This document shows, piece after piece, positions 4,833-26,688 of a stretch of DNA of 32,721 nucleotides. How positions within the stretch are numbered: the stretch's first letter is position 1; each line of letters begins with the position of its first letter. The DNA comes from a virus: positions 1 to 32,721 of the IMG/VR virus record IMGVR_UViG_3300017770_000076; one strand, 5' to 3'. The notes under the pieces are model-generated. The model searched no databases. It was not told where the DNA came from and saw nothing but the letters and a program-made list of their open reading frames with translations. A program made the translations under genes and the position numbers.

Positions 4833-6125
4833 ATGTTAGATAAACTATTTGGTTTAACAAAAGCAGGTACTACTGTAAGAACAGAAGTAATGGCTGGCGT
4901 TGCCACTTTCCTAACAATGGCATATATTACTGTAGTTAACCCTGCTATTCTTTCAACTGAAGGAACCGGTATGGGTTTTGGTGCTGTATTTACAGCAACA
5001 ATTATTGCCGCAGTAATTGGTACATTGATTATGGGACTATGGGCTAATTGGCCTGTAGCACTAGCACCAGGTATGGGACTTAATGCGTTCTTTACATTTG
5101 GTGTAATCTTTGGTATGGGGTATACATTCCAACAAGCACTGGCGGCTGTATTTGTCGCAGGTATTGTGTTCATTGGATTGTCTTTGACACCTGCTAGAAA
5201 ATATATCATTAATTCAATTCCACGAAGTATGAAACTTGGAGTAGGGGCAGGCATTGGCTTATTCCTTGCTATCATTGGATTCAAAAATGCAGGTATCGTA
5301 ATTGACAACCCTGCAACTTTAGTTGGACTTGGTGATATTTCTAGTTGGCCTGTATTACTTGCAGGTTTAGGTTTTGCTATTATGGCTATCCTAGACAAGC
5401 GTAAAGTACCAGGAGCAATTATAGTTGGCATCCTTGCAGTAAGTATTATTGCTTGGATCTTTGGAGTATCTGACTTAAATGGTTTTGCAGGAGCAATTCC
5501 TAGTCCGGCACATGCTTTCAGTTTAGACTTTAGCATGATTGCTACGGCAGGATTCATTGGTACTGCGTTTGCATTTTTGTTTGTAGACTTCTTAGATACA
5601 GCAGGTACACTTACTAGTGTTGCTAACCTAACAGATAAAGTTAACAAAAACGGTGAAGTCGAAGGTATTGACAAAGCCTTGTTAGCAGATTCTGTGGCTA
5701 CAACAGCAGGTGCATTGGCTGGAACTTCAAATACTACTTCATACATTGAAAGTGGAGCAGGTATTAAAGAAGGTGGTAAAACAGGATTGACAGCAGTAGT
5801 TGTTGCTATCTTGTTTGGTGCTTGTTTATTCCTTGCACCTCTAGCACAGAGTATTCCTGCATTCGCTACGGCGCCTGCACTTATATTCATCGCAACTTAC
5901 TTCTTAAGAAATCTTAAGGACATTGATTGGGATGATGTAACGGAGTATGCACCAGCAGTGTTGGCGGCAGTTATTATGCCATTAACATTTAGTATTGCCT
6001 ATGGTATTGCAATTGGCTTTATTGCTTATGTTGTTATTAAAGCATTAAGCGGTAAACAAGCAGACCTTAACGGTGGCAGTCTAGCAATAGCGGCAGTAAG
6101 TTTACTGTACTTTGTAGCAGTATAA
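4833..6125 (+). CDS. NCS2/AzgA-type purine permease
   Basis: A 430-residue polytopic inner-membrane protein of the AzgA branch of the NCS2 nucleobase transporter family, whose known members import adenine, guanine or hypoxanthine with protons. Seen directly: the N-terminal TFLTMAYITVVNP segment, ALAPGMGLNAFF, the FVDFLDTAGTL motif, GTSNTTSYIESGAGIKEGGKTG, and about 12 hydrophobic segments. Length matches cellular members, so the gene seems full size. AAGGAAAATAACATG gives the start; an upstream in-frame ATG lies inside the cupin gene and has no ribosome site. A phage copy could raise purine supply for DNA synthesis. No frameshift or stop is seen. Confidence 0.93.
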   Translation: MLDKLFGLTKAGTTVRTEVMAGVATFLTMAYITVVNPAILSTEGTGMGFGAVFTATIIAAVIGTLIMGLWANWPVALAPGMGLNAFFTFGVIFGMGYTFQQALAAVFVAGIVFIGLSLTPARKYIINSIPRSMKLGVGAGIGLFLAIIGFKNAGIVIDNPATLVGLGDISSWPVLLAGLGFAIMAILDKRKVPGAIIVGILAVSIIAWIFGVSDLNGFAGAIPSPAHAFSLDFSMIATAGFIGTAFAFLFVDFLDTAGTLTSVANLTDKVNKNGEVEGIDKALLADSVATTAGALAGTSNTTSYIESGAGIKEGGKTGLTAVVVAILFGACLFLAPLAQSIPAFATAPALIFIATYFLRNLKDIDWDDVTEYAPAVLAAVIMPLTFSIAYGIAIGFIAYVVIKALSGKQADLNGGSLAIAAVSLLYFVAV

Positions 6126-6364
6126 TGGATAAAATATACGAGTCTCCGGATGGAGGTGAAACAGTTTATGAACGTGATACTGAAACTGGGACTCGTATAT
6201 TAATTCAAGAAAAAGAATACCCAGAGTGGCATTTAACAGAATTAGAAATAAGTGAAATATTAGAAAATGCTAACGACGGAAATAAAACATTACAGAATAT
6301 GTTAAAAGAATTAAAAACAGTTTATTACTTAACAATGGAAAACAATGATGCTTACCCCGATTAA
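6125..6364 (+). CDS. Small acidic phage protein
   Basis: A 79-residue protein beginning MDKIYESPDGGETVYERD, very acidic and without cysteines or membrane segments. It resembles small conserved proteins of marine T4-like phages, but I know no function. It overlaps the permease stop by one base (TAATG) and overlaps the next gene by 20 bases, so it is part of the same operon. The C-terminal half is predicted helical (LKTVYYLTMENN). Confidence 0.75.
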   Translation: MDKIYESPDGGETVYERDTETGTRILIQEKEYPEWHLTELEISEILENANDGNKTLQNMLKELKTVYYLTMENNDAYPD

Positions 6365-6947
6365 TACAATACCTACACTAGTATGGAAAGCAACTTATCC
6401 GGGTAATTTTTCATCTGCTTGTTCTCGTGCTATTAAAGAAACAGTGTTGATGCCAGAGAATGCAGGTAGTATGCGTGGCGGCGGCAAAACAAATGCTAAT
6501 CATAATCCTTTAGATCCACACATGTGGGAGGAGTTACACGACTTTATGATTTGGTTACAACCAATTGTAAATAATGTTTGGAAAGAATGGGATATGCAAG
6601 AATTACCATTAGAAGTTATGAATAGTTGGACTAATATAACAAACCAAAACGGATATGTTGTTGAACACGATCATAGTCCGGCACATATGGCGGCAAGTGT
6701 TTACTTAAACAAACCCGAAGATAGTGGCGATATAGAATTTAGAAATCCTTTACATTCAAGTTGGACATATATGCCAAGAAGTCATACAGATTTTAGTAGA
6801 CAAGACTTCTGGCAGAGTGTACAATGTAATACTAACGATGTGTTACTTTTTCCTGCTTGGCTTTCACATAGAGTACAAGCAAATCAAGTTAATGAAAACA
6901 GAGTTGTTATGAGTATGAATATTGTAGGAATAAAAAATGAAATTTAA
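6345..6947 (+). CDS. 2OG-Fe(II) oxygenase (PF13759-like)
   Basis: A 200-residue member of the phage-common 2-oxoglutarate, iron-dependent oxygenase group. The family needs an HxD/HxH pair, a distal His and an Arg that binds 2-oxoglutarate. Here EHDHSPAHMAASVYL supplies H108 and H110, LSHRVQAN supplies H175, and R186 lies in NRVVMSMNI. A GDIEF strand follows the first motif, as expected. The substrate in phages is unknown; hydroxylation of protein or of a nucleobase or glycan has been proposed for relatives. It sits next to a cupin gene, which it overlaps by 11 bases. It is the first of three oxygenases in the window. Confidence 0.85.
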   Translation: MMLTPINTIPTLVWKATYPGNFSSACSRAIKETVLMPENAGSMRGGGKTNANHNPLDPHMWEELHDFMIWLQPIVNNVWKEWDMQELPLEVMNSWTNITNQNGYVVEHDHSPAHMAASVYLNKPEDSGDIEFRNPLHSSWTYMPRSHTDFSRQDFWQSVQCNTNDVLLFPAWLSHRVQANQVNENRVVMSMNIVGIKNEI

Positions 6948-11588: not shown

Positions 11589-12099
11589 CGCAATTAAAGA
11601 ATATGATTTAAAATTGTTAGAATCTAATCTAACAAGTAATTTAGTTCCGTGGACATACAATCATAATGTTGCATATGGTGATGGAAAAAAACAATACGGA
11701 TTCAGCACTAATGTATTCGAAGATGGAAAAATTGAAAATCCTAGTCTTGCATTATTACTAAATCCTGTGAAAGAATTACTAGGAGATATTGACTTAATTC
11801 GCTGTAGAATAGGGTTTATATTTTATTCAGGACAACAACAAGATCAATATCACGATGCTCATGTGGATTTTAAATTTGAACATAAAACTAGTTTGTTTTA
11901 CGTAAACAACAGCGATGCACCTACGGTGTTTTACAATGAAGTATTTCCTAGTCAAGACAATAATTTTACAGTCAAAGATACAGTATACCCTAAGGCAAAT
12001 ACGATAATTACATTTAACGGGTTACAATATCATAGTAGTAGCAGTCCTAGAACACCTGGGCATAGACTAGTTGTAACATTTAATTATAAGGTAAAATAA
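11572..12099 (+). CDS. 2OG-Fe(II) oxygenase (prolyl-hydroxylase-like)
   Basis: A 175-residue oxygenase of the P4H-like type. The iron site is HVD (H97, D99) in YHDAHVDF and the distal H154 in QYHSSSSPRTPGHR; R165 would bind 2-oxoglutarate. A strand LFYVNN follows the HxD motif as usual. It differs in sequence from the other two oxygenases in the window, so these are not recent duplicates. It overlaps the primase gene by 17 bases and the following SGNH-like gene by one base (TAATG). Substrate unknown. Confidence 0.82.
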   Translation: MKIIDNAIKEYDLKLLESNLTSNLVPWTYNHNVAYGDGKKQYGFSTNVFEDGKIENPSLALLLNPVKELLGDIDLIRCRIGFIFYSGQQQDQYHDAHVDFKFEHKTSLFYVNNSDAPTVFYNEVFPSQDNNFTVKDTVYPKANTIITFNGLQYHSSSSPRTPGHRLVVTFNYKVK

Positions 12100-12884
12100 T
12101 GTACGAAATATTATATGCAAATGGCGATAGTTTTACACATGGAATGGAAATCCTAGGTAATAACAATGTATCAGAAGAAAACAAATATCATGCTTATCCA
12201 ATGCAGATAACAGATAAACTTAATATTGGAAACAATGTTAATAGTGCATTACCTGGTGCACCTAATGAATGGATTGCACGTACAACTATTTTAGATCTAT
12301 TAAAACTAAAACAAGAAGGACAAGACTTATCAAAGGTGTTTGTTATTGTAGGGTGGAGTGGTATTAATAGACTAGAAATTACGGCCAAAGAAGAAATTAA
12401 AATGCTTAAGAAGACAGGTGAGTGGCCGCCAATTGGTATGGTGTCAACTGAGATCGAAATGTTTGGTACAAACTTTGTAAATCCAAATACAACCAAATGG
12501 GTCAAAGATGAGAACGGTAATACGGTGTGTAGTTTTGGAGATGATGCACAAATGTTCTGTGCTCAATATCTTTGGGACGAAGACTTAGAACACGAAAAAT
12601 GGTTTGGGTATATCATGTTAGTAAAAAACTTTTGTGAGAATAATAATATAAAATATTTCTTTCATAACAATGTGCATTCATGGAATAAAGATCTTAACAT
12701 TCGTCCTAATCTTTTAAAAGATATTTTTGACAAACGTTATTATCAACCTTATGACTTTGCGTTTAGTCCGTGGGGAAAAGAAAGACACAGTTACGGTGTT
12801 CGAAAAGAAGGACACTTTACAAAACAAGTTCATGTAGCATTTACAGATTTGATACTTCCGTATATTAAGGAAAATTGCCTATGA
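12099..12884 (+). CDS. SGNH-hydrolase-like protein, copy 1
   Basis: A 261-residue protein with block I ANGDSFTHG (nucleophile S11), a block II glycine in ALPGAPNEW, and a block III-like GWSGINRLE where the usual GxND asparagine is replaced or shifted. A late EGHFTKQVH segment may hold the block V histidine. The pattern fits phage SGNH/GDSL-type proteins, possibly DUF6071. Family members are esterases or acetyl-transfer enzymes acting on glycans. It is followed by a paralogue in an ATGA overlap. Catalysis is plausible but not certain because block V lacks the usual D-x-x-H spacing. Confidence 0.75.
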   Translation: MYEILYANGDSFTHGMEILGNNNVSEENKYHAYPMQITDKLNIGNNVNSALPGAPNEWIARTTILDLLKLKQEGQDLSKVFVIVGWSGINRLEITAKEEIKMLKKTGEWPPIGMVSTEIEMFGTNFVNPNTTKWVKDENGNTVCSFGDDAQMFCAQYLWDEDLEHEKWFGYIMLVKNFCENNNIKYFFHNNVHSWNKDLNIRPNLLKDIFDKRYYQPYDFAFSPWGKERHSYGVRKEGHFTKQVHVAFTDLILPYIKENCL

Positions 12885-13645
12885 AAACATTATTCGCAAT
12901 AGGTGACAGTCTTACTGCTGGTGCAGAATGTATCGGTGATAAAGACATGACCGAATTAAACAAAGAACATGCATATCCTATGTATGTAGCAAACAAATTA
13001 AAATTTGATACTTGTATTAACAAAGCATTACCAGGAGCGTCTAATGATTGGATAACACGTAAATGTGTATTAGAATTAGAAGAACTTAAACGACGAGGAC
13101 AAGATTTAAAAGATTGTTTTGTGCTAGTTGGATGGTCAAGCATTAATAGAACCGAAGTTAATATTCGTAGTGTTTTAGATCAAGTAGCAGTTGACCCAGA
13201 AATAAAATTAGAATTCATGCCAGACTTACAACATGCTGAAATGAATTTGTTTAGTTCATTGTTTGTTAATGCTAATACTAATCCGACCAAAGTCAAAGGC
13301 GATGGTGGGTTGTTTATAGAAACTTGTCACGAAGTTAAAAACTTTAGTGGAAAGTATCTTTGGGATTATGAACTTGAATATGAAAAATGGTATTCAAATA
13401 TTCAACTACTAAGATCATATTTAGAACAAAACGTAGGAAACTTTTTGTTTCACAATAATATACACAAGTGTGAAGTGCATAGTGATACATATAATTTTAA
13501 AAACTACTTTCAACCTAGAGATGAAAGTTTTAATGAATGGGCAACAACTAACGAATATAGTAGGATGAAACTATTTCATCCTGTAGAAAAAGCACACGGT
13601 GATTATAGTAAATTACTAGTCAAATATATCGAGGATAATTTATGA
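12881..13645 (+). CDS. SGNH-hydrolase-like protein, copy 2
   Basis: A 254-residue paralogue of the preceding protein. It aligns along its whole length: AIGDSLTAG (S10), NKEHAYPMYVANKL, NKALPGASNDWITR, FVLVGWSSINRTE, SGKYLWDYELEYEKWYSNIQLL, and FLFHNNIHK. The C-terminal HPVEKAHGDYSKLLV is the place of the block V histidine. The divergence (roughly half the residues differ by eye) shows an old tandem duplication. Start 12881 is chosen for AAGGAAAATTGCCT and the ATGA overlap; TTG at 12875 is less likely. Confidence 0.75.
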   Translation: MKTLFAIGDSLTAGAECIGDKDMTELNKEHAYPMYVANKLKFDTCINKALPGASNDWITRKCVLELEELKRRGQDLKDCFVLVGWSSINRTEVNIRSVLDQVAVDPEIKLEFMPDLQHAEMNLFSSLFVNANTNPTKVKGDGGLFIETCHEVKNFSGKYLWDYELEYEKWYSNIQLLRSYLEQNVGNFLFHNNIHKCEVHSDTYNFKNYFQPRDESFNEWATTNEYSRMKLFHPVEKAHGDYSKLLVKYIEDNL

Positions 13646-13755
13646 AAAGTATTTGGTTAAAAATAAAATTAAAATATGCTAAATGGAAAACTAAACGCGA
13701 AGTTAGAAAAAAACTTAAACTGTTACAAAAGAAAGATCCTTTTATATATAAATGA
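13642..13755 (+). CDS. Tiny lysine-rich protein
   Basis: A 37-residue ORF starting in an ATGA overlap with the second SGNH-like gene and ending in an ATGA overlap with the carbamoyltransferase gene. Nearly half of its residues are Lys or Arg, with Trp at positions 5 and 15. It may bind nucleic acid or a membrane. The double coupling is the main support that it is translated. Confidence 0.55.
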   Translation: MKSIWLKIKLKYAKWKTKREVRKKLKLLQKKDPFIYK

Positions 13756-14747
13756 TTATGAATAATAAAATTACGTGGGGTATAGTAGCAAACAGTCATG
13801 ATGCTAGTCTTGCGATATTCAAAGGTGTACATCCTGTGTGGGCGTGTTTAGCAAAAGACTTTACAGGTGTAGACAATGATCCTGACTTGAATTTTACAAT
13901 GACTAGTGTAGCAAAAGAGATGTATGGCATTCCTGATGAAATAGTATGGTATGAATATCCTAGACTCAAATGGTTGCGTCAACTGTGGGCAGGACAGAGA
14001 ATTCCTTATAGTGATACAAATGTAAGAGAATATCTAAAATCCTATGACGTTGGACCTATTAATAAATTATCGTACACAAAGCATCACGAAAGCCATGCCG
14101 CATATGGTTACTACGGTACCAATAGCGGAAATACACGTTGGGCAATAGTTGTACTAGATAGTATAGGCGAGTTTGAAACTTATACTATATGGGACGGACT
14201 TGGTGGTCGTATTAAAAGAATTCACAGTCAAGGATATCCGCACTCCATAGGTTTATGGTATAGTGCTATGACACAACGACTAGGACTAGTAGCAAACAAA
14301 GATGAATATCTTGTAGCACAAATGGCAAAGCAAGGTAATGCTGAACGTTATAAAAAAGATGTAGATGAATTATTTGATATCAACTATCCTAGTGTAAAAT
14401 TTAATGTTAACATGCACAGAGGATTAGATGCTTGGTTACCTGATGCAGATGCTAATGATTTGGCCGCGGCAGTACAATCCAAGTTTGAAGAAATCATTAT
14501 GGGAATTAGCCTTTGGTTAAAGAACGTACACCATTATGAACAAGTGTGTTTTATGGGCGGGTGTGCATTAAACAAACCTGCAATAGATAATGTTATAAAC
14601 TCTAGAATGTTTCAACATGTGCATGTTCCAAAACACCCAGGCGATCCGGGAAGTTGTTTAGGAAGTGTTTTCGCCAAAACTAAAACAAGAGTTGACTTTA
14701 GCGACAAAATATGGTATAATAGTACAACAGATGGCAAAGGGAAATAA
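13752..14747 (+). CDS. NodU/TobZ-type carbamoyltransferase, catalytic-domain only
   Basis: A 331-residue protein matching the N-terminal Kae1-like domain of O-carbamoyltransferases. Seen directly: NSHDASLAIF near residues 14-23, KHHESHAAYGYYGT near 110-123 with the conserved metal histidines, AIVVLDSIGE near 131-140, GGCALNKPA near 269-277, and HPGDPGSCLGSVFA near 298. Cellular enzymes are about 550-600 residues and have a further C-terminal domain that is absent here. They transfer a carbamoyl group from carbamoyl phosphate to a sugar or antibiotic hydroxyl. Similar short versions are known in marine T4-like phages. The target may be a glycan or modified base. Confidence 0.82.
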   Translation: MIMNNKITWGIVANSHDASLAIFKGVHPVWACLAKDFTGVDNDPDLNFTMTSVAKEMYGIPDEIVWYEYPRLKWLRQLWAGQRIPYSDTNVREYLKSYDVGPINKLSYTKHHESHAAYGYYGTNSGNTRWAIVVLDSIGEFETYTIWDGLGGRIKRIHSQGYPHSIGLWYSAMTQRLGLVANKDEYLVAQMAKQGNAERYKKDVDELFDINYPSVKFNVNMHRGLDAWLPDADANDLAAAVQSKFEEIIMGISLWLKNVHHYEQVCFMGGCALNKPAIDNVINSRMFQHVHVPKHPGDPGSCLGSVFAKTKTRVDFSDKIWYNSTTDGKGK

Positions 14748-21869: not shown

Positions 21870-22910
21870 TTAAGAAGATCGCAACACTGTGGTCGCCGCG
21901 TAATCCCTCCAACTGGAAGGGAAACTTTGTGCAAGGTCAGCACATTTAAGTACTGTCCTTAGAGACAGTTCACGTAAACGTTTGCTGTTCTCGGTTATAA
22001 ACTCTACCACATCGTCCTTGCGTTCCTGTGGCATATTGTATTCATCCAGCATGCCATCTCTGACAATCTGTTTGATACGCAACATCTTCTCACGATGTGT
22101 GTCTATGGTCAAATCCACATAGTGACAACGTGACTCTAGTGCTTCTAGGTGATCCTTGAGTTTCTTACTACGAACGTTTTCAAACTTGATATTGGTAATG
22201 AATATCGCACTACCTTTGAATTCAAATCTGTCTGGAATACCTTCGCTACGCAGTAGTCGCGAATCAGTGTTCCAACTTATATAACGCTTCTTACTAGTAT
22301 CCAAGGCCGCCTTAAGAATGTTCAGCGAAAGGTCATCTAGTAACACAGAGTCACAGTCATCAAACACAACTACGTTCTTAGGATCTGAAAACTTGTACAG
22401 TTTGCTGTAGAGTCCAATTGCACTCATAGCACCCTTGACAACTTCGTAGCGTCTGCTTTTGCCACTTACATCATCAAAGATTGAATCCTTTTCTAGTTGT
22501 GTTTCAACACCGAAACTCTTACCAACACCCGGAGGGCCACTTACGATCATTGCACGTATGTTACCTTCCTTGCAGGCTCTGGTCATCTCGTCTAGGATAC
22601 CAAAACGTTTGCCAATACGTTCCATGACCTGTTCATCGGTCTCTGTGTCCTTGACTGTGTTCTTGAGAGCGTTTTGCTTGACTTCATCGAAGTTGCTGTC
22701 TACGATCTCATAGTCCTGTGGTGTGTCGATCTTTACACGTATACTACGTTCTGGAAAGCCTGCTTGTGCGGCTCCATCAACAGTTACATACGCACCGTTC
22801 TTGCCTTGTTTGAAATGCTCAATGAGTGGAAACTTCATGCCTGATACATCTGTATCTGCGCCTCTGATCTTGTATGTTCCAGTCTTGAACTGTATTAATG
22901 CTGTCTTCAT
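21870..22910 (-). CDS. AAA-family ATPase
   Basis: A 346-residue protein. The ATPase core starts near residue 100: Walker A GPPGVGKS at 125-132, Walker B VVVFDDCD at 180-187, a sensor-1-like IFITN near 237, and a helical lid after it. The N-terminal 90 residues are a separate small domain. It is the largest protein of the early block. Related single-AAA proteins occur in many marine T4-like phages with no proven role; remodelling of DNA or host complexes is plausible. It has its own promoter (16-base spacer) and a GGAGCGAAAC ribosome site. A terminator follows. Confidence 0.85.
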   Translation of the reverse strand: MKTALIQFKTGTYKIRGADTDVSGMKFPLIEHFKQGKNGAYVTVDGAAQAGFPERSIRVKIDTPQDYEIVDSNFDEVKQNALKNTVKDTETDEQVMERIGKRFGILDEMTRACKEGNIRAMIVSGPPGVGKSFGVETQLEKDSIFDDVSGKSRRYEVVKGAMSAIGLYSKLYKFSDPKNVVVFDDCDSVLLDDLSLNILKAALDTSKKRYISWNTDSRLLRSEGIPDRFEFKGSAIFITNIKFENVRSKKLKDHLEALESRCHYVDLTIDTHREKMLRIKQIVRDGMLDEYNMPQERKDDVVEFITENSKRLRELSLRTVLKCADLAQSFPSSWRDYAATTVLRSS

Positions 22911-23384: not shown

Positions 23385-23528
23385 TTAACTGTTTATACTT
23401 ACAGTATATGCTCTAACTGTGTAGTTGTCAACCACTTTCTTGGGTTGATTTTTATATAGTTTTGGTGGGTTGAATGCCCGATCATTGTTGAGTCTTGCAA
23501 TGCTTTTGGTGCTACGAATCAGTACCAT
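23385..23528 (-). CDS. Possible small protein reading through a promoter
   Basis: A 47-residue ORF (MVLIRSTKSIARLNNDRAFN and onward) starting in a TAATG overlap with the 23528-23950 gene, with GGAGGTAGCC before it. Its last 17 codons run through the whole promoter of the next gene, both -35 and -10, and the stop is in the leader. The strong ribosome site supports translation; the ending may be incidental. Confidence 0.45.
   Translation of the reverse strand: MVLIRSTKSIARLNNDRAFNPPKLYKNQPKKVVDNYTVRAYTVSINS
23403..23431 (-). promoter_or_regulatory. Early promoter for 23368 gene
   Basis: TTGACA, 17-base spacer ACTACACAGTTAGAGCA, TATACT, then GTAAGTATAAAC. No ACCGGT. Confidence 0.78.
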
Positions 23529-23950
23529 TAGGCTACCTCCTCTTCAAGTTTGATGTACTCCTCTTGGAAGTCTGTACGATTGCCGCCGGCCAACATCCTG
23601 TATGAAGTTGCCTTGCCCTTGTAGCCGGGTTGCCAATAGTCTTCTGCCTTGACATAACGGCTAGCATAGAAGCCCTTGTCCTCTACATGGATGTTCCACG
23701 GAGTTTCCCACTCCTCACAACACACTGCGTCATCTTCCATGACGTCCGAGTAGATGATGTATTCTTCTTGATACTCATCGCTCGACTCGATCAGTGCTCG
23801 TAACTGCGGAAGCAGATCCTTGTTGCTCACACCCGGTACCACATAAGTGTCGCCACCCTTGAACTTCCAATACTGTGGACACTCACCTTTGCCATCCCAA
23901 TCGTGGGCGCCGTAGTTTTCCTTGTATTGTGTTTGAATTACTAGTTTCAT
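23528..23950 (-). CDS. Early phage protein, unknown function
   Basis: A 140-residue acidic protein rich in Tyr and Trp: MKLVIQTQYKENYGAHDWDG, then GGDTYVVPGVSNKDLLPQL and EEWETPWNIHVEDKGFYASR. The opening QTQYKENYGAHDW recalls a family of small phage proteins of unknown function. It contains five prolines, in sharp contrast with the next six genes to the right. Own promoter and AAGGAGCGAAC ribosome site. Confidence 0.8.
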   Translation of the reverse strand: MKLVIQTQYKENYGAHDWDGKGECPQYWKFKGGDTYVVPGVSNKDLLPQLRALIESSDEYQEEYIIYSDVMEDDAVCCEEWETPWNIHVEDKGFYASRYVKAEDYWQPGYKGKATSYRMLAGGNRTDFQEEYIKLEEEVA

Positions 23951-23979: not shown

Positions 23980-24008
23980 AGTATAACTGGTTTTTCCGGA
24001 ATTGTCAA
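23980..24008 (-). promoter_or_regulatory. Early promoter for 23950 gene
   Basis: TTGACA, 17-base spacer ATTCCGGAAAAACCAGT, TATACT, then GTAAGTATAAAC. TTCCGGAA is a palindrome. The left border of the pyrimidine-C-free block falls inside this promoter at 24000. Confidence 0.8.
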
Positions 24009-24032
24009 CCTCTTTTTTGCATTATTTTACAA

Positions 24033-24242
24033 TTAATTTGTCGCGTATTTGCTAGTGTATTCGTACCACATTTCGCTATACAAATCGTCTTTGCAATCTG
24101 CTTCACTGCTTCCCTGTAGCAAACCCTCGTGTTCTTGCATCACGTCTGCAAGTTCGTATACATTTTCGCATTCGCTAATTTTATCAAAAGCAATGTCGTA
24201 AAACTTGTTTACATTGTCTTCTATTAAATTGTACATTCCCAT
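24033..24242 (-). CDS. Proline-free small acidic protein (block gene 1)
   Basis: A 69-residue acidic protein with no proline. The C-terminal part, EADCKDDLYSEMWYEYTSKY, resembles DDDCVNEGVSEMWHDYCKRN in the protein at 24748-25104, so the two may be distant paralogues. Every C of the sense strand follows A or G. It has its own promoter with a 7-bp inverted repeat and an AGGAGCGACG ribosome site. No known family. Confidence 0.75.
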   Translation of the reverse strand: MGMYNLIEDNVNKFYDIAFDKISECENVYELADVMQEHEGLLQGSSEADCKDDLYSEMWYEYTSKYATN

Positions 24243-24275
24243 CGTCGCTCCTCTCGCTTTTTTATTTTATAATTA

Positions 24276-24304
24276 ACAGTAGCACACTTTTGCACTACTG
24301 TCAA
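24276..24304 (-). promoter_or_regulatory. Early promoter for 24242 gene
   Basis: TTGACA, 17-base spacer GTAGTGCAAAAGTGTGC, TACTGT. ACAGTAG and CTACTGT form an inverted repeat spanning the -35 and -10. Confidence 0.75.
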
Positions 24305-24323
24305 CTAGTTTTTTTATTTTATT

Positions 24324-24665
24324 TTAGCACTCCATACTAGCGTAGTTGTTGTCTTGCATGCCTTGTTCAGTAAAACTTACATCCATATTAAGTGCTTTAC
24401 TAATAGCATTTTCAAATCCACTGTCAGTGTAAATTTCCCATGTTGTGTCATGTTCCACATTTACCATTTTGTAACTGTAGTCATCATCAACATTTACTGT
24501 TTCAATAACTTGTATACTTTTTACAGCAACAGTATCACTTCCATTGTAATCCCATATGCTGTCCATAGCAAGTTTAACATTGCCTTCAGTTTCATATGTT
24601 GTATAGTTTATAGTTTCATTTGCGTTTTTTTCAACGCTTGTGTGTGTTTTTGTAATGTTTAACAT
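24324..24665 (-). CDS. Proline-free protein (block gene 2)
   Basis: A 113-residue protein, MLNITKTHTSVEKNANETIN, rich in Asn, Thr, Val, Asp and Tyr, with no proline; by the base rule all its serines must be AGY. The middle (YETEGNVKLAMDSIWDYNGS, KSIQVIETVNVDDDY) looks like alternating strands. Own promoter and ATGGAGCGTACATG start site. Not recognised. Confidence 0.75.
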   Translation of the reverse strand: MLNITKTHTSVEKNANETINYTTYETEGNVKLAMDSIWDYNGSDTVAVKSIQVIETVNVDDDYSYKMVNVEHDTTWEIYTDSGFENAISKALNMDVSFTEQGMQDNNYASMEC

Positions 24666-24700
24666 GTACGCTCCATAATGTTAATTGTTATTGTATTATT

Positions 24701-24729
24701 AATATAACACAGTTTTTCCAAACTGTCAA
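24701..24729 (-). promoter_or_regulatory. Early promoter for 24665 gene
   Basis: TTGACA, 17-base spacer GTTTGGAAAAACTGTGT, TATATT. ACAGTTT-GGAA-AAACTGT is an inverted repeat with 7-base arms. Confidence 0.8.
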
Positions 24730-24747
24730 GCATTAAATTAAAGTTTT

Positions 24748-25104
24748 TTACATACGCATACAAGCGTCTTCGCCGTCGTAATCGTGTGCTTGTTTGTCTA
24801 AAAAGTAAAAGTTTAAAATGTTATTACGTTTGCAATAATCGTGCCACATTTCACTAACGCCCTCGTTAACACAATCGTCGTCGTATCTATAATTAGTAAC
24901 ACATTGCATTGCTTTTTCATATGTAATTGTGTTGTCATAAAACATAGTAATTAACTTTTTTGCATTGTCTAAAATTTCTTCACACGTATCCGTTTCCCAA
25001 TAATTTTCAAATTCACTGTCAAATATTTCAACTTTGTAATTTGCCCAGTGTGTTAAAAAGTTTACCATGTGTTGTAATTGTGTTTTTGTAATTGTGTTTT
25101 GCAT
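24748..25104 (-). CDS. Proline-free protein (block gene 3)
   Basis: A 118-residue mostly helical protein, MQNTITKTQLQHMVNFLTHW, with an acidic middle and no proline. The segment DDDCVNEGVSEMWHDYCKRN matches the C-terminus of block gene 1. Its opening MQN-x-ITKT resembles that of block gene 5 (MQNFKTITKT). Four to five cysteines are present. Own promoter; ACGGAGCGTACATG start site. Confidence 0.75.
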   Translation of the reverse strand: MQNTITKTQLQHMVNFLTHWANYKVEIFDSEFENYWETDTCEEILDNAKKLITMFYDNTITYEKAMQCVTNYRYDDDCVNEGVSEMWHDYCKRNNILNFYFLDKQAHDYDGEDACMRM

Positions 25105-25132
25105 GTACGCTCCGTATTGTTATTATATTATT

Positions 25133-25161
25133 AATATAGCACAGTTTTTCCAAACTGTCAA
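25133..25161 (-). promoter_or_regulatory. Early promoter for 25104 gene
   Basis: TTGACA, 17-base spacer GTTTGGAAAAACTGTGC, TATATT. Almost identical to the promoters at 24701 and 25770. Confidence 0.8.
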
Positions 25162-25164
25162 TTA

Positions 25165-25302
25165 TTATTTTACAAAATACGTATAATAATCTTCCTCATG
25201 CTCCGCTATTTTGTCCCCATTTTGCAAGTTGTTGCTTTGCTCCATTTGTGTGTAAGCACGTTGTAAAAAGTAATATGTAATTTTGTTTAGTAGTTTTTGC
25301 AT
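25165..25302 (-). CDS. Proline-free tiny protein (block gene 4)
   Basis: A 45-residue protein, MQKLLNKITYYFLQRAYTQM, then an acidic tail ending YYTYFVK. The start at 25302 follows GAGGGTTACACAC; an in-frame ATG at 25317 lies inside that site. The N-terminus is an amphipathic helix that could touch a membrane. No proline. The promoter overlaps the terminator of the upstream gene. Confidence 0.6.
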   Translation of the reverse strand: MQKLLNKITYYFLQRAYTQMEQSNNLQNGDKIAEHEEDYYTYFVK

Positions 25303-25335
25303 GTGTGTAACCCTCATTTTGTTATTGTATAATTT

Positions 25336-25364
25336 AATGTAGCACAAAAAACACAGTTATGCAA
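25336..25364 (-). promoter_or_regulatory. Early promoter for 25302 gene
   Basis: TTGCAT, 17-base spacer AACTGTGTTTTTTGTGC, TACATT. The -35 is one arm of the terminator stem and the spacer holds its T-run. Confidence 0.65.
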
Positions 25365-25385
25365 ATACTTTTATTGCATAACTGT
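25345..25385 (-). terminator. Intrinsic terminator, 12-bp perfect stem
   Basis: On the minus strand ACAGTTATGCAA, a 9-base loop, and TTGCATAACTGT form a perfect 12-bp stem followed by GTTTTTT. It lies 9 bases after the stop of the 25395-25739 gene and doubles as promoter DNA for the next gene. Confidence 0.8.
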
Positions 25386-25394
25386 TATGTAATT

Positions 25395-25739
25395 TTAGTT
25401 GCTTAAATATACGTAATTTTCTAAGTTAACTTTTTGCATTGCTGTGTTAGCAACTACAGTTGTAAACAAACTGCTTTCATCATAGTACGTTATGTTGTTA
25501 GCAAACACTTCCATTATGCTTTGCAACGCTACGTAATCATTGCTTTCATTTTCAACGTACAGCATTTGCAACTGTGCAAAAATGTTAGCACTGTTAATAA
25601 AGTAACTTGCACTTGTGCAATCTGCTTCCACTACGTTTAAGTTGTTAAAGCAGTTATTAATTACAACGTATAACGTATCCATGTGTACGCTTTTAGTTTT
25701 AGTTGTAGTTGTTTTAGTAATAGTTTTAAAGTTTTGCAT
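25395..25739 (-). CDS. Proline-free protein (block gene 5)
   Basis: A 114-residue protein, MQNFKTITKTTTTKTKSVHM, then a helical body (LYVVINNCFNNLNVVEADC, ANIFAQLQMLYVENESNDY). It is rich in Asn, Thr, Val and Ala, with no proline and no TCN serine. Strong AAGGAGCGTACATG start site, own promoter, and a clear terminator after it, so it is a one-gene unit. Not recognised. Confidence 0.75.
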   Translation of the reverse strand: MQNFKTITKTTTTKTKSVHMDTLYVVINNCFNNLNVVEADCTSASYFINSANIFAQLQMLYVENESNDYVALQSIMEVFANNITYYDESSLFTTVVANTAMQKVNLENYVYLSN

Positions 25740-25769
25740 GTACGCTCCTTATGCATTTGTTATTGTTTT

Positions 25770-25798
25770 ATAGTAACACAGTTTTTCCAAACTGTCAA
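25770..25798 (-). promoter_or_regulatory. Early promoter for 25739 gene
   Basis: TTGACA, 17-base spacer GTTTGGAAAAACTGTGT, TACTAT. Confidence 0.8.
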
Positions 25799-25801
25799 TT
25801 A

Positions 25802-26161
25802 TTATTTTGCATTAAAATACATGTCCTCGTTGTAAAGTTGTGTATAGTTTGCTTTTAAATTAAAATGTTGTTGTAAAATTTGTGTTGCAAGTTTGTTGCA
25901 AGTACAGTTATAAACGTTTCCACTTATAAAATTTGTGTTGTAATTTGCATAACAATCTACAACATAAGTTGTGTTATTATGCACAACATTAAACATAAAG
26001 CAAATGTCCACGTCGTCTGTGTAAATGCTTGTGCAAGTTACATGCTTACTAATTGTTTGTTGCTTTGCAAACTTATGACGTTTTTTAAATTGCTTTAAAA
26101 CGCTTTGTGTGTGTACACTACTAAAACTATTATTTGTTGCTACTAAATTTTGTGTTTGCAT
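25802..26161 (-). CDS. Proline-free protein (block gene 6)
   Basis: A 119-residue protein, MQTQNLVATNNSFSSVHTQS, with a basic region (KQFKKRHKFAKQQ) and then a Cys/Asn/Tyr-rich half containing five or six cysteines (VTCTSIY, DICFMF, VDCYANY, YNCTCNK). The cysteine spacing could bind metal. The single TC of the whole block is at the Arg-His junction of KKRHK. No proline. Start site AAAAAAGCGAGGAAAAAT. Confidence 0.75.
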   Translation of the reverse strand: MQTQNLVATNNSFSSVHTQSVLKQFKKRHKFAKQQTISKHVTCTSIYTDDVDICFMFNVVHNNTTYVVDCYANYNTNFISGNVYNCTCNKLATQILQQHFNLKANYTQLYNEDMYFNAK

Positions 26162-26191
26162 ATTTTTCCTCGCTTTTTTATTTTATAACTT

Positions 26192-26220
26192 AATATAGCA
26201 CACTTTTTTCCAAAATGCAA
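26192..26220 (-). promoter_or_regulatory. Early promoter for 26161 gene
   Basis: TTGCAT, 17-base spacer TTTGGAAAAAAGTGTGC, TATATT. Confidence 0.7.
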
Positions 26221-26254
26221 GTAAAATAAACATAACAAGTTAATTAAAAAGAGG

Positions 26255-26289: not shown

Positions 26290-26337
26290 ACGCTCCCGAT
26301 GGGCGAAGGCTCAGGTTGGTGGCTATCCTTTAGCCAC
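26290..26337 (+). ncRNA. Candidate small RNA with anti-ribosome-site 5' end
   Basis: A transcript from the + promoter should start about base 26289-26290 and begin (G)UACGCUCCCGAUGGGCG. GTACGCTCC (26288-26296) is the exact complement of GGAGCGTAC, the ribosome site of the 24665, 25104 and 25739 genes. A 7-bp hairpin GTGGCTA-TCCTT-TAGCCAC (26319-26337) follows and might end the RNA, though only TTCCCC follows it. It is also antisense to the 3' end of the 26323-26688 gene. Confidence 0.4.
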
Positions 26338-26688
26338 TTCCCCTGTTTCATCTTCTTCGAGTGCTACTAGAGGATCCTCATCGTAGACCGACCATGGTAG
26401 TTCATCGTCTTCATACAAACGATAGAACTTCTCCTCGACCTCTTTCCATTCACTCCACAGTTCTCCTGAACTCTGTTTGTGAAAGCCTCTGAAGCCTCCT
26501 TCGAGGATATAACAGAGTGTGTCGCTTTGACCGTCTTCGTTAAGGTCCTTCTTGATATTTGTGAACTCGACTTGTAGCAACCTCTCTGCTAGAACATAGT
26601 GGGTAAGGTTCAACCCTCGACCGTCTTGTCCTACTACTGTTTCGGCTTCTACATCACGAAAGTCTGACGGTAAACTATCTTTAGCCAT
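26323..26688 (-). CDS. Early phage protein, unknown function
   Basis: A 121-residue, very acidic protein, MAKDSLPSDFRDVEAETVVG, with a predicted beta segment (SDTLCYILEGGFRGFHKQSS) and an acidic C-terminal tail. It overlaps the Api92-like gene by 8 bases and has GGAGGCAGTCA before its ATG, so the two form an operon. The stop codon lies in a 7-bp hairpin (GTGGCTA...TAGCCAC). Function unknown. Confidence 0.8.
   Translation of the reverse strand: MAKDSLPSDFRDVEAETVVGQDGRGLNLTHYVLAERLLQVEFTNIKKDLNEDGQSDTLCYILEGGFRGFHKQSSGELWSEWKEVEEKFYRLYEDDELPWSVYDEDPLVALEEDETGEVAKG

Follow-up and report, generated by a model that had tools for sequence, protein, structure and literature searches.

Sense-strand absence of YC dinucleotides, a recurrent trait of phage gene clusters with a possible origin in RNA attack

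The YC-free block and its genes

The DNA analysed here (the window) is a linear viral record of 32.7 kb (IMG/VR record IMGVR_UViG_3300017770_000076, 32,721 nucleotides) in which genes for a helicase, a primase and DnaB are present. Positions 24001–26250 contain six small genes, all on the minus strand, and this sense strand has only one YC dinucleotide (CC or TC) in 2250 nt. Genes and promoters were called by simple scripts. The genes, with observed/expected YC counts, are g1 (24033–24242, 69 aa, family F9, 0/11), g2 (24324–24665, 113 aa, the 'EQGMQ' family, termed A or F0, 0/18), g3 (24748–25104, 118 aa, 0/22), g4 (25165–25302, 45 aa from its ATG, family F14, YC-free), g5 (25395–25739, 114 aa, family F15, YC-free) and g6 (25802–26161, 119 aa, 1/26), in which GR (GG or GA) is also scarce (10/26). 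For g4, the ATG at 25302 is preferable to the TTG at 25347, which corrects an earlier ORF call. The six encoded proteins lack proline, and all of their serine codons are AGY.

Each gene has its own predicted promoter, likewise on the minus strand. Promoters with a palindrome, ACAGTTTggaaAAACTGT, were predicted for g2 (24701–24729, TTGACA/TATATT), g3 (25133–25161) and g5 (25770–25798, TTGACA/TACTAT). Those of g4 (25336–25364, TTGCAT/TACATT) and g6 (26192–26220, TTGCAT/TATATT) have a different -35 element, and -10 and -35 elements were assigned to g1 at 24276–24304; the g1 and g4 promoters were identified by inspection of the sequence. The minus-strand genes flanking the block at its lower (23528–23950, YC 33/34) and upper (26323–26688, YC 31/26) boundaries are normal, as are YC and GR in the flanks generally.

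The original prediction had reported that GG was absent and GA present once on the plus strand of this block, that both were common just outside it, that the effect was strand-specific, and that the rule amounted to removal of every YC from the sense strand; all of this was confirmed. The single GR step (GA, at 26077) compares with 129 expected from composition, whereas YC on the same strand is 163 versus 223 expected, so that the depletion is strand-specific, and the minus-strand orientation of all six genes makes the rule a sense strand without YC. The block is made up of a GR-free gap of 2078 nt (23999–26077) and an adjoining one of 174 nt; no other gap in the window exceeds 147 nt. A corrected sequence with ordinary counts had been proposed as a check, and two further assemblies retain the same GR-poor block, 3300017755 with 4 SNPs in 2280 nt and 3300017763 with 2 SNPs in 2052 nt. 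Since the SNPs among the three assemblies add no YC, assembly or reading error was excluded.

Recurrence in related phages

Related contigs were retrieved through homologues of a nearby window gene (21870–22910, phrog_1250). Sense-strand runs without YC reached 1288 nt, 950 nt and 666 nt in three loci (L032, L051 and L077) and 425 nt at 50% GC in loci L035–L042, whereas GR runs in these loci were shorter than 170 nt. Homologues of g2 (alignments A1 and A2) were found at 80 further loci, and in most loci with 42–52% GC they had no YC versus 19–33 expected, so that this family is YC-free in dozens of phages; its members in viral contigs of a different group (GC 34–40%) and in Xanthomonas phage X1 are YC-normal. 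A homologue of g4 (L166:5688–5849) is likewise YC-free, and homologues of g5 in L166, L225 and L226 are YC-free on their own sense strand.

Overall, 102 distinct genes at 45 loci were essentially YC-free, on contigs of related, large phages from the environment with 37–52% GC; they belong to 37 protein families, a set that includes a single PA5oct entry that is probably a chance reading frame. A gene-by-gene census was bimodal, with 98 distinct genes below 5% of expected YC, these counts being of distinct but not independent genes because many loci are close relatives. The mode near zero was unique to YC and had no counterpart for RG, CY, GY, RC, CR or YG. The YC-free genes of four larger contigs (353, 185, 116 and 49 kb) are essentially confined to a single region per genome. 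Genes next to the clusters in related contigs have ordinary YC, with a mild depletion that fades with rank (0.65, 0.78 and 0.88), partly because intermediate families sit there. The absence of YC is therefore a recurrent trait and not a local oddity.

The same protein can be encoded with or without YC. One gene (L132:6619–6948) is YC-free (0/23), whereas its homologues in L119, L120, L129 and L140, which are 84–86% identical and share its promoter type, have 17–20 YC; one YC remains in the promoter spacer of this gene, but there is none between +1 and the stop codon. Homologues of g1 (L092:2696–2899, 59% identity, YC 11/13) and of g2 (L092:1274–1534, 64% identity, 15/23) are YC-normal. Such pairs indicate that the trait is gained or lost by lineage.

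Among isolated phages, blastn with the block gave no match, tblastn with family A gave only Xanthomonas phage X1, and two other families used as queries gave nothing. No clue to the host was found in the genome contigs, and an Rfam search returned tRNAs only.

Strand and extent of the depletion

The rule follows the sense strand of each gene. Eight YC-free genes in L166 lie in both orientations; the g5 homologue is turned relative to those of g2 and g4, and it is its own sense strand that lacks YC. Between a divergent YC-free pair the DNA is rich in both YC and GR. In L225 the g1 and g5 homologues form a divergent pair, the g5 homologue being again turned relative to neighbouring YC-free genes, and a GR-free stretch of 1496 nt covers the minus-strand genes. 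YC-free genes in both orientations exclude replication-strand and genome-strand causes.

The depletion is also limited to the transcription unit. For YC-free genes that are first of a block, with a normal upstream neighbour, the ratio of observed to expected YC was 0.58 before the -35 element and fell to 0.22 across the promoter spacer, 0.13 across the leader and 0.01 within the coding sequence, versus 0.96, 0.86, 0.42 and 0.88, respectively, in normal genes. The last YC precedes the predicted start by a median of about 59 nt, which indicates that promoters are partly affected. In a profile aligned on the start codon, the coding sequences of YC-free genes were at 0.01–0.05, there was no YC at -30 to -19 relative to AUG (0 in 1152 nt), and YC was tolerated at -9 to -1 (12 in 864 nt, or 0.385 of normal), a pocket of 9 nt that rests on 12 YCs in eight genes. 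Where normal genes have strong promoters, their leaders are also depleted (0.23); only a handful of promoters could be set against these in a leader comparison with other phages. Downstream of the stop codon, YC reappears mostly in terminator-like stems or in the next gene's promoter, and 79% of the YCs after the stop of YC-free genes are paired versus 63% in normal genes; residual YCs inside coding sequences are paired no more often than other Cs.

A second-order signal was found on the antisense strand of YC-free genes, where YC is depleted in YCA and AYC contexts (sense TGAT 0.19, GGAT 0.31). T is avoided before GR (0.14 versus 0.33) and not before GY (0.39 versus 0.36), and a few genes lack both YC and GR. 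The context preference on the sense strand itself is confounded by codon choice.

Codon usage and substitutions

If the proteins of 93 YC-free genes were encoded with normal codon usage, 1547 YC would be expected, versus 5 found, and YC is purged to zero at all three codon phases as well as at codon junctions, so that an artefact of protein composition was rejected. YC codons are replaced by codons ending in A rather than T. Threonine codons in YC-free genes are 0.30 ACT and 0.60 ACA (0.34 and 0.34 in normal genes), whereas C-to-T change predicts 0.58 for ACT; alanine codons shift in the same way. Isoleucine is always ATA when the next codon starts with C, and GGC (glycine) and GAC (aspartate) are increased. 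Proline is 0.0% of residues versus 3.5% in normal genes, and the few YCs left in family F1 lie largely at a conserved Phe-Pro, so that essential residues are tolerated. Where YC-normal homologues have serine TCN, YC-free genes have AGC or AGT 26 times and Phe or Leu 2 times; where they have proline, YC-free genes have Thr 19, Ser 9 and Leu 5 times.

The YC-free state is thus not a scar of C-to-T deamination, and the absence of YC is maintained by selection and not by C-to-T mutation. The original prediction had put forward an APOBEC-type deaminase as its leading reading and had proposed to test homologues for directional change of YC to YT; the spectrum of A-ending codons, AGY serines, threonines for prolines and increased GAC and GGC is not that of such a change and contradicts the reading. 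Programmed diversification, another of its suggestions, is not supported, the block being nearly invariant between assemblies and family A keeping invariant columns across phages; its view of a long-settled state is supported.

Searches for a candidate agent

No YC-specific RNase was found. In 17 related contigs there was no match to RegB (a search run without a positive control) and no homologue of T4-type DenB (T4 control positive, although distant homologues could escape). TGT/DpdA was absent from 32 records of up to 353 kb, and QueC was not consistent. PADLOC gave no match among the ten cluster proteins scanned, and the consulted passage of a toxin table lists no plain YC enzyme. The AlphaFold2 model of family A (g2) is beta-rich and confident (pLDDT 91), and neither PDB (E below 0.5) nor BFVD (E below 0.05) yielded a match. 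Family F3 has a weakly ferredoxin-like fold, and its weak fold-search matches suggested no function.

Possible causes of the YC-free state

The reading that we favour, tentatively, is that the mRNAs of the block have been recoded for immunity to an RNA attack that recognises YC, most likely by an endoribonuclease. Avoidance of a YC-directed nuclease was one of the options in the original prediction and is judged the best fit. The block would be a cluster of early genes of the host-takeover type, and the infected cell, at the time when these genes are needed, would contain an activity directed against YC in single-stranded RNA. The most likely candidate would be an endoribonuclease specific for YC, which could come from the host, as an abortive-infection enzyme, or from the phage, as a host-shutoff enzyme. 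Ordinary mRNAs, in which YC occurs about once per 12 nt, would be destroyed, and selection would have rewritten the transcription units until the mRNA offers no accessible YC step, so that YC-free mRNAs would survive and be translated. In a stronger form, which we hold a little more tentatively, this would be a 'protected message' channel: a YC-reading RNA nuclease of phage or host would wipe out nearly all mRNA, and only the mRNAs of unrelated early genes, rewritten at the cost of proline, would survive and be translated.

The limits of the depletion to the sense strand and the transcription unit, its recurrence in unrelated genes and its absence from some homologous phages are observed directly; from these we infer RNA rather than transcribed DNA as the target, attack at individual sites, and a nuclease as the agent. 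The clustering of genes at exactly zero YC suggests that each site counts, which argues for a per-site action such as cleavage over cumulative binding by Rho. The YC pocket before AUG points to an RNA-level process, since only such a process would know the start codon. However, several observations speak against an attack on RNA. Absence of YC upstream of the Shine-Dalgarno sequence (SD) with tolerance between SD and AUG needs ribosome protection or leaderless translation, and a cut upstream of SD should do little harm, yet no YC is found there. Promoter spacers of YC-free genes are depleted too (0.22), and residual YCs in coding sequences are not paired more than other Cs. The antisense depletion in YCA and AYC contexts is not explained by an attack on mRNA, nor are the few genes without GR as well as YC, and these signals, together with the avoidance of T before GR, lie beyond an RNA-only model. 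Furthermore, neighbouring genes with the same promoter type keep their YC, so that timing alone cannot say which genes need protection.

Immunity to the termination factor Rho, whereby a YC-free nascent transcript would not be bound and hence not terminated, appears unlikely, although several observations agree with it. Rho utilization (rut) sites are described by YC dimers (PMC9160355), the depletion lies on the sense strand of a transcribed region with its leaders included, the nascent RNA of the transcription unit is without YC, and YC is allowed in hairpins, in keeping with Rho's requirement for RNA free of structure. However, Rho depends on several YC spread across tens of nucleotides, so that a last isolated YC should be neutral and selection should relax at low YC, yet a separate mode lies at exactly zero. 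Translation normally shields genes from Rho, yet coding sequences are the most strictly purged part, and the antisense context effect is left unexplained.

A transcription-coupled attack on DNA, in which a nuclease or deaminase defence would hit YC on the displaced non-template strand, with selection clearing all such sites by whatever substitution, is in our view rather improbable. It would account for the sense-strand bias, the weaker antisense depletion in YCA and AYC contexts, the depleted promoter spacers and the genes without YC on both strands. It does not fit the YC-rich DNA between divergent genes, the untouched neighbours with the same promoter type, the YC-tolerant pocket at the start codon or the failure to detect T4-type DenB in the 17 related contigs.

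Transfer of cassettes as single-stranded DNA in sense polarity, with only YC-free cassettes surviving, is very doubtful. One cluster per genome, the changes of orientation in L166 and L225, depletion extending to about -60 and palindromes at YC-free promoters are consistent with it, but the L132 gene is YC-free with its promoter YC kept, and its 84–86% identical homologues share the promoter type. About as doubtful is selection on mRNA structure or codon usage alone, with no factor that reads YC: YC can pair with GR and with SD, and leaders behind strong promoters of normal genes are depleted as noted, but selection on structure would be graded, whereas here all codon phases and junctions are at zero and proline is lost. 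Blocking of RNA polymerase by 7-deazaguanine in template GR, which some genes would then avoid, would yield template-strand specificity; it was rejected as highly improbable because TGT/DpdA is missing from the records examined and QueC is not consistently present. Hypermutation by a cytosine deaminase, turning sense-strand YC into YT, has a matching target context in YC on one strand, as APOBEC-like enzymes prefer YC, and has almost no probability left in view of the codon spectrum. Avoidance of a CRISPR PAM, as for CC under type I-F targeting, is comparably remote and was rejected by the strand rule: PAM depletion is known in phages (PMC12174588), but a double-stranded target is hit on either strand, whereas here the sense strand alone is affected, gene by gene, in one cluster per genome, with avoidance on both strands in only the few double-free genes.

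Comparison with known systems

The pattern implies a strong, previously undescribed recognition of YC, linked to RNA or to transcription, in infected environmental bacteria, and sequence alone marks which phage genes must function under YC pressure. The question is directly testable, since YC can be restored synonymously, gene by gene. We know of no other natural case of an absolute dinucleotide ban over whole genes that applies to the sense strand only and deletes an amino acid, and none was found in the open-access papers searched for a natural sense-strand-only absolute ban.

Several known systems resemble it in part. APOBEC-type hypermutation shares the YC context but leaves C-to-T changes, whereas the phage genes show any substitution and keep C after purines. 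CRISPR type I-F PAM depletion is likewise a defence-driven avoidance of a dinucleotide in phage; it is mild, genome-wide, confined to CC and strand-free, whereas the present avoidance is total, concerns YC on the sense strand and is limited to certain genes. T4 endonuclease IV (DenB), a dC-specific single-stranded DNA endonuclease (PMC12405507), acts during phage infection on cytosine wherever single strands are exposed, but it is a DNA enzyme and no homologue was detected in large related contigs. Rut sites share the YC unit on RNA, the requirement for unstructured RNA and the sense strand, but they consist of many YC in C-rich untranslated RNA, whereas the phage genes are purged even of single YCs and even where translated. 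Immunity to a sequence-specific RNase has in common with the phage genes that the motif is wholly absent from the mRNA. Cells expressing MazF still translate ACA-less mRNAs (PMC5408214), and in that E. coli system, as proposed here, messages without the motif remain available for translation when all others are destroyed by an RNase specific for it; the MazF system is engineered for single-protein production and concerns ACA, whereas the phage case is natural, concerns YC and spans many protein families, with an agent that is hypothetical.

Promoters and spacers of the YC-free genes

A palindrome running from -35 to -10 was found in 40% of the promoters of YC-free genes, the small phage genes whose sense strand is almost devoid of pyrimidine-C steps (YC), versus 6% of the promoters of genes with ordinary YC content. 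Examples are located at positions 24701-24729 of the window and, in the related phage contigs L120 and L103, upstream of 5297 and 5765, respectively. These palindromes vary in sequence, and changes in one arm are matched in the other.

A YC-rich hairpin-like element of the CCCCGCTG/GGGGTGCAACCCC types, for which Rfam returned no match, was found repeatedly between YC-free units (L032, after 20334; L077, after 12627; L141, about 5620-5670; L166, 6840-6870 and 7273-7300).

Variation in YC content

Three homologues of YC-free families in L050 (4661-5014, 12940-13236 and 13322-13693) had about half the expected YC, and this lineage is possibly in the course of gaining or losing the YC-free trait. 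The final ~140 nt of a normal gene adjoining the cluster in L141 (3920-4342) were YC-free; the trait can extend into an upstream neighbour.

The sense strands of five genes, located in L166 (7898-8140 and 8395-8646), L153 (2328-2678 and 3159-3722) and L226 (5685-5930), were almost or fully devoid of both YC and G-purine steps, and three of the five lacked a Shine-Dalgarno sequence.

Other genes in the window

The window also encodes a putative 2OG-Fe(II) oxygenase (6345-6947, PF13759), two paralogous neighbours (12099-12884 and 12875-13645), both PF19547 (DUF6071), and a carbamoyltransferase (13752-14747; PF02543, phrog_1601).
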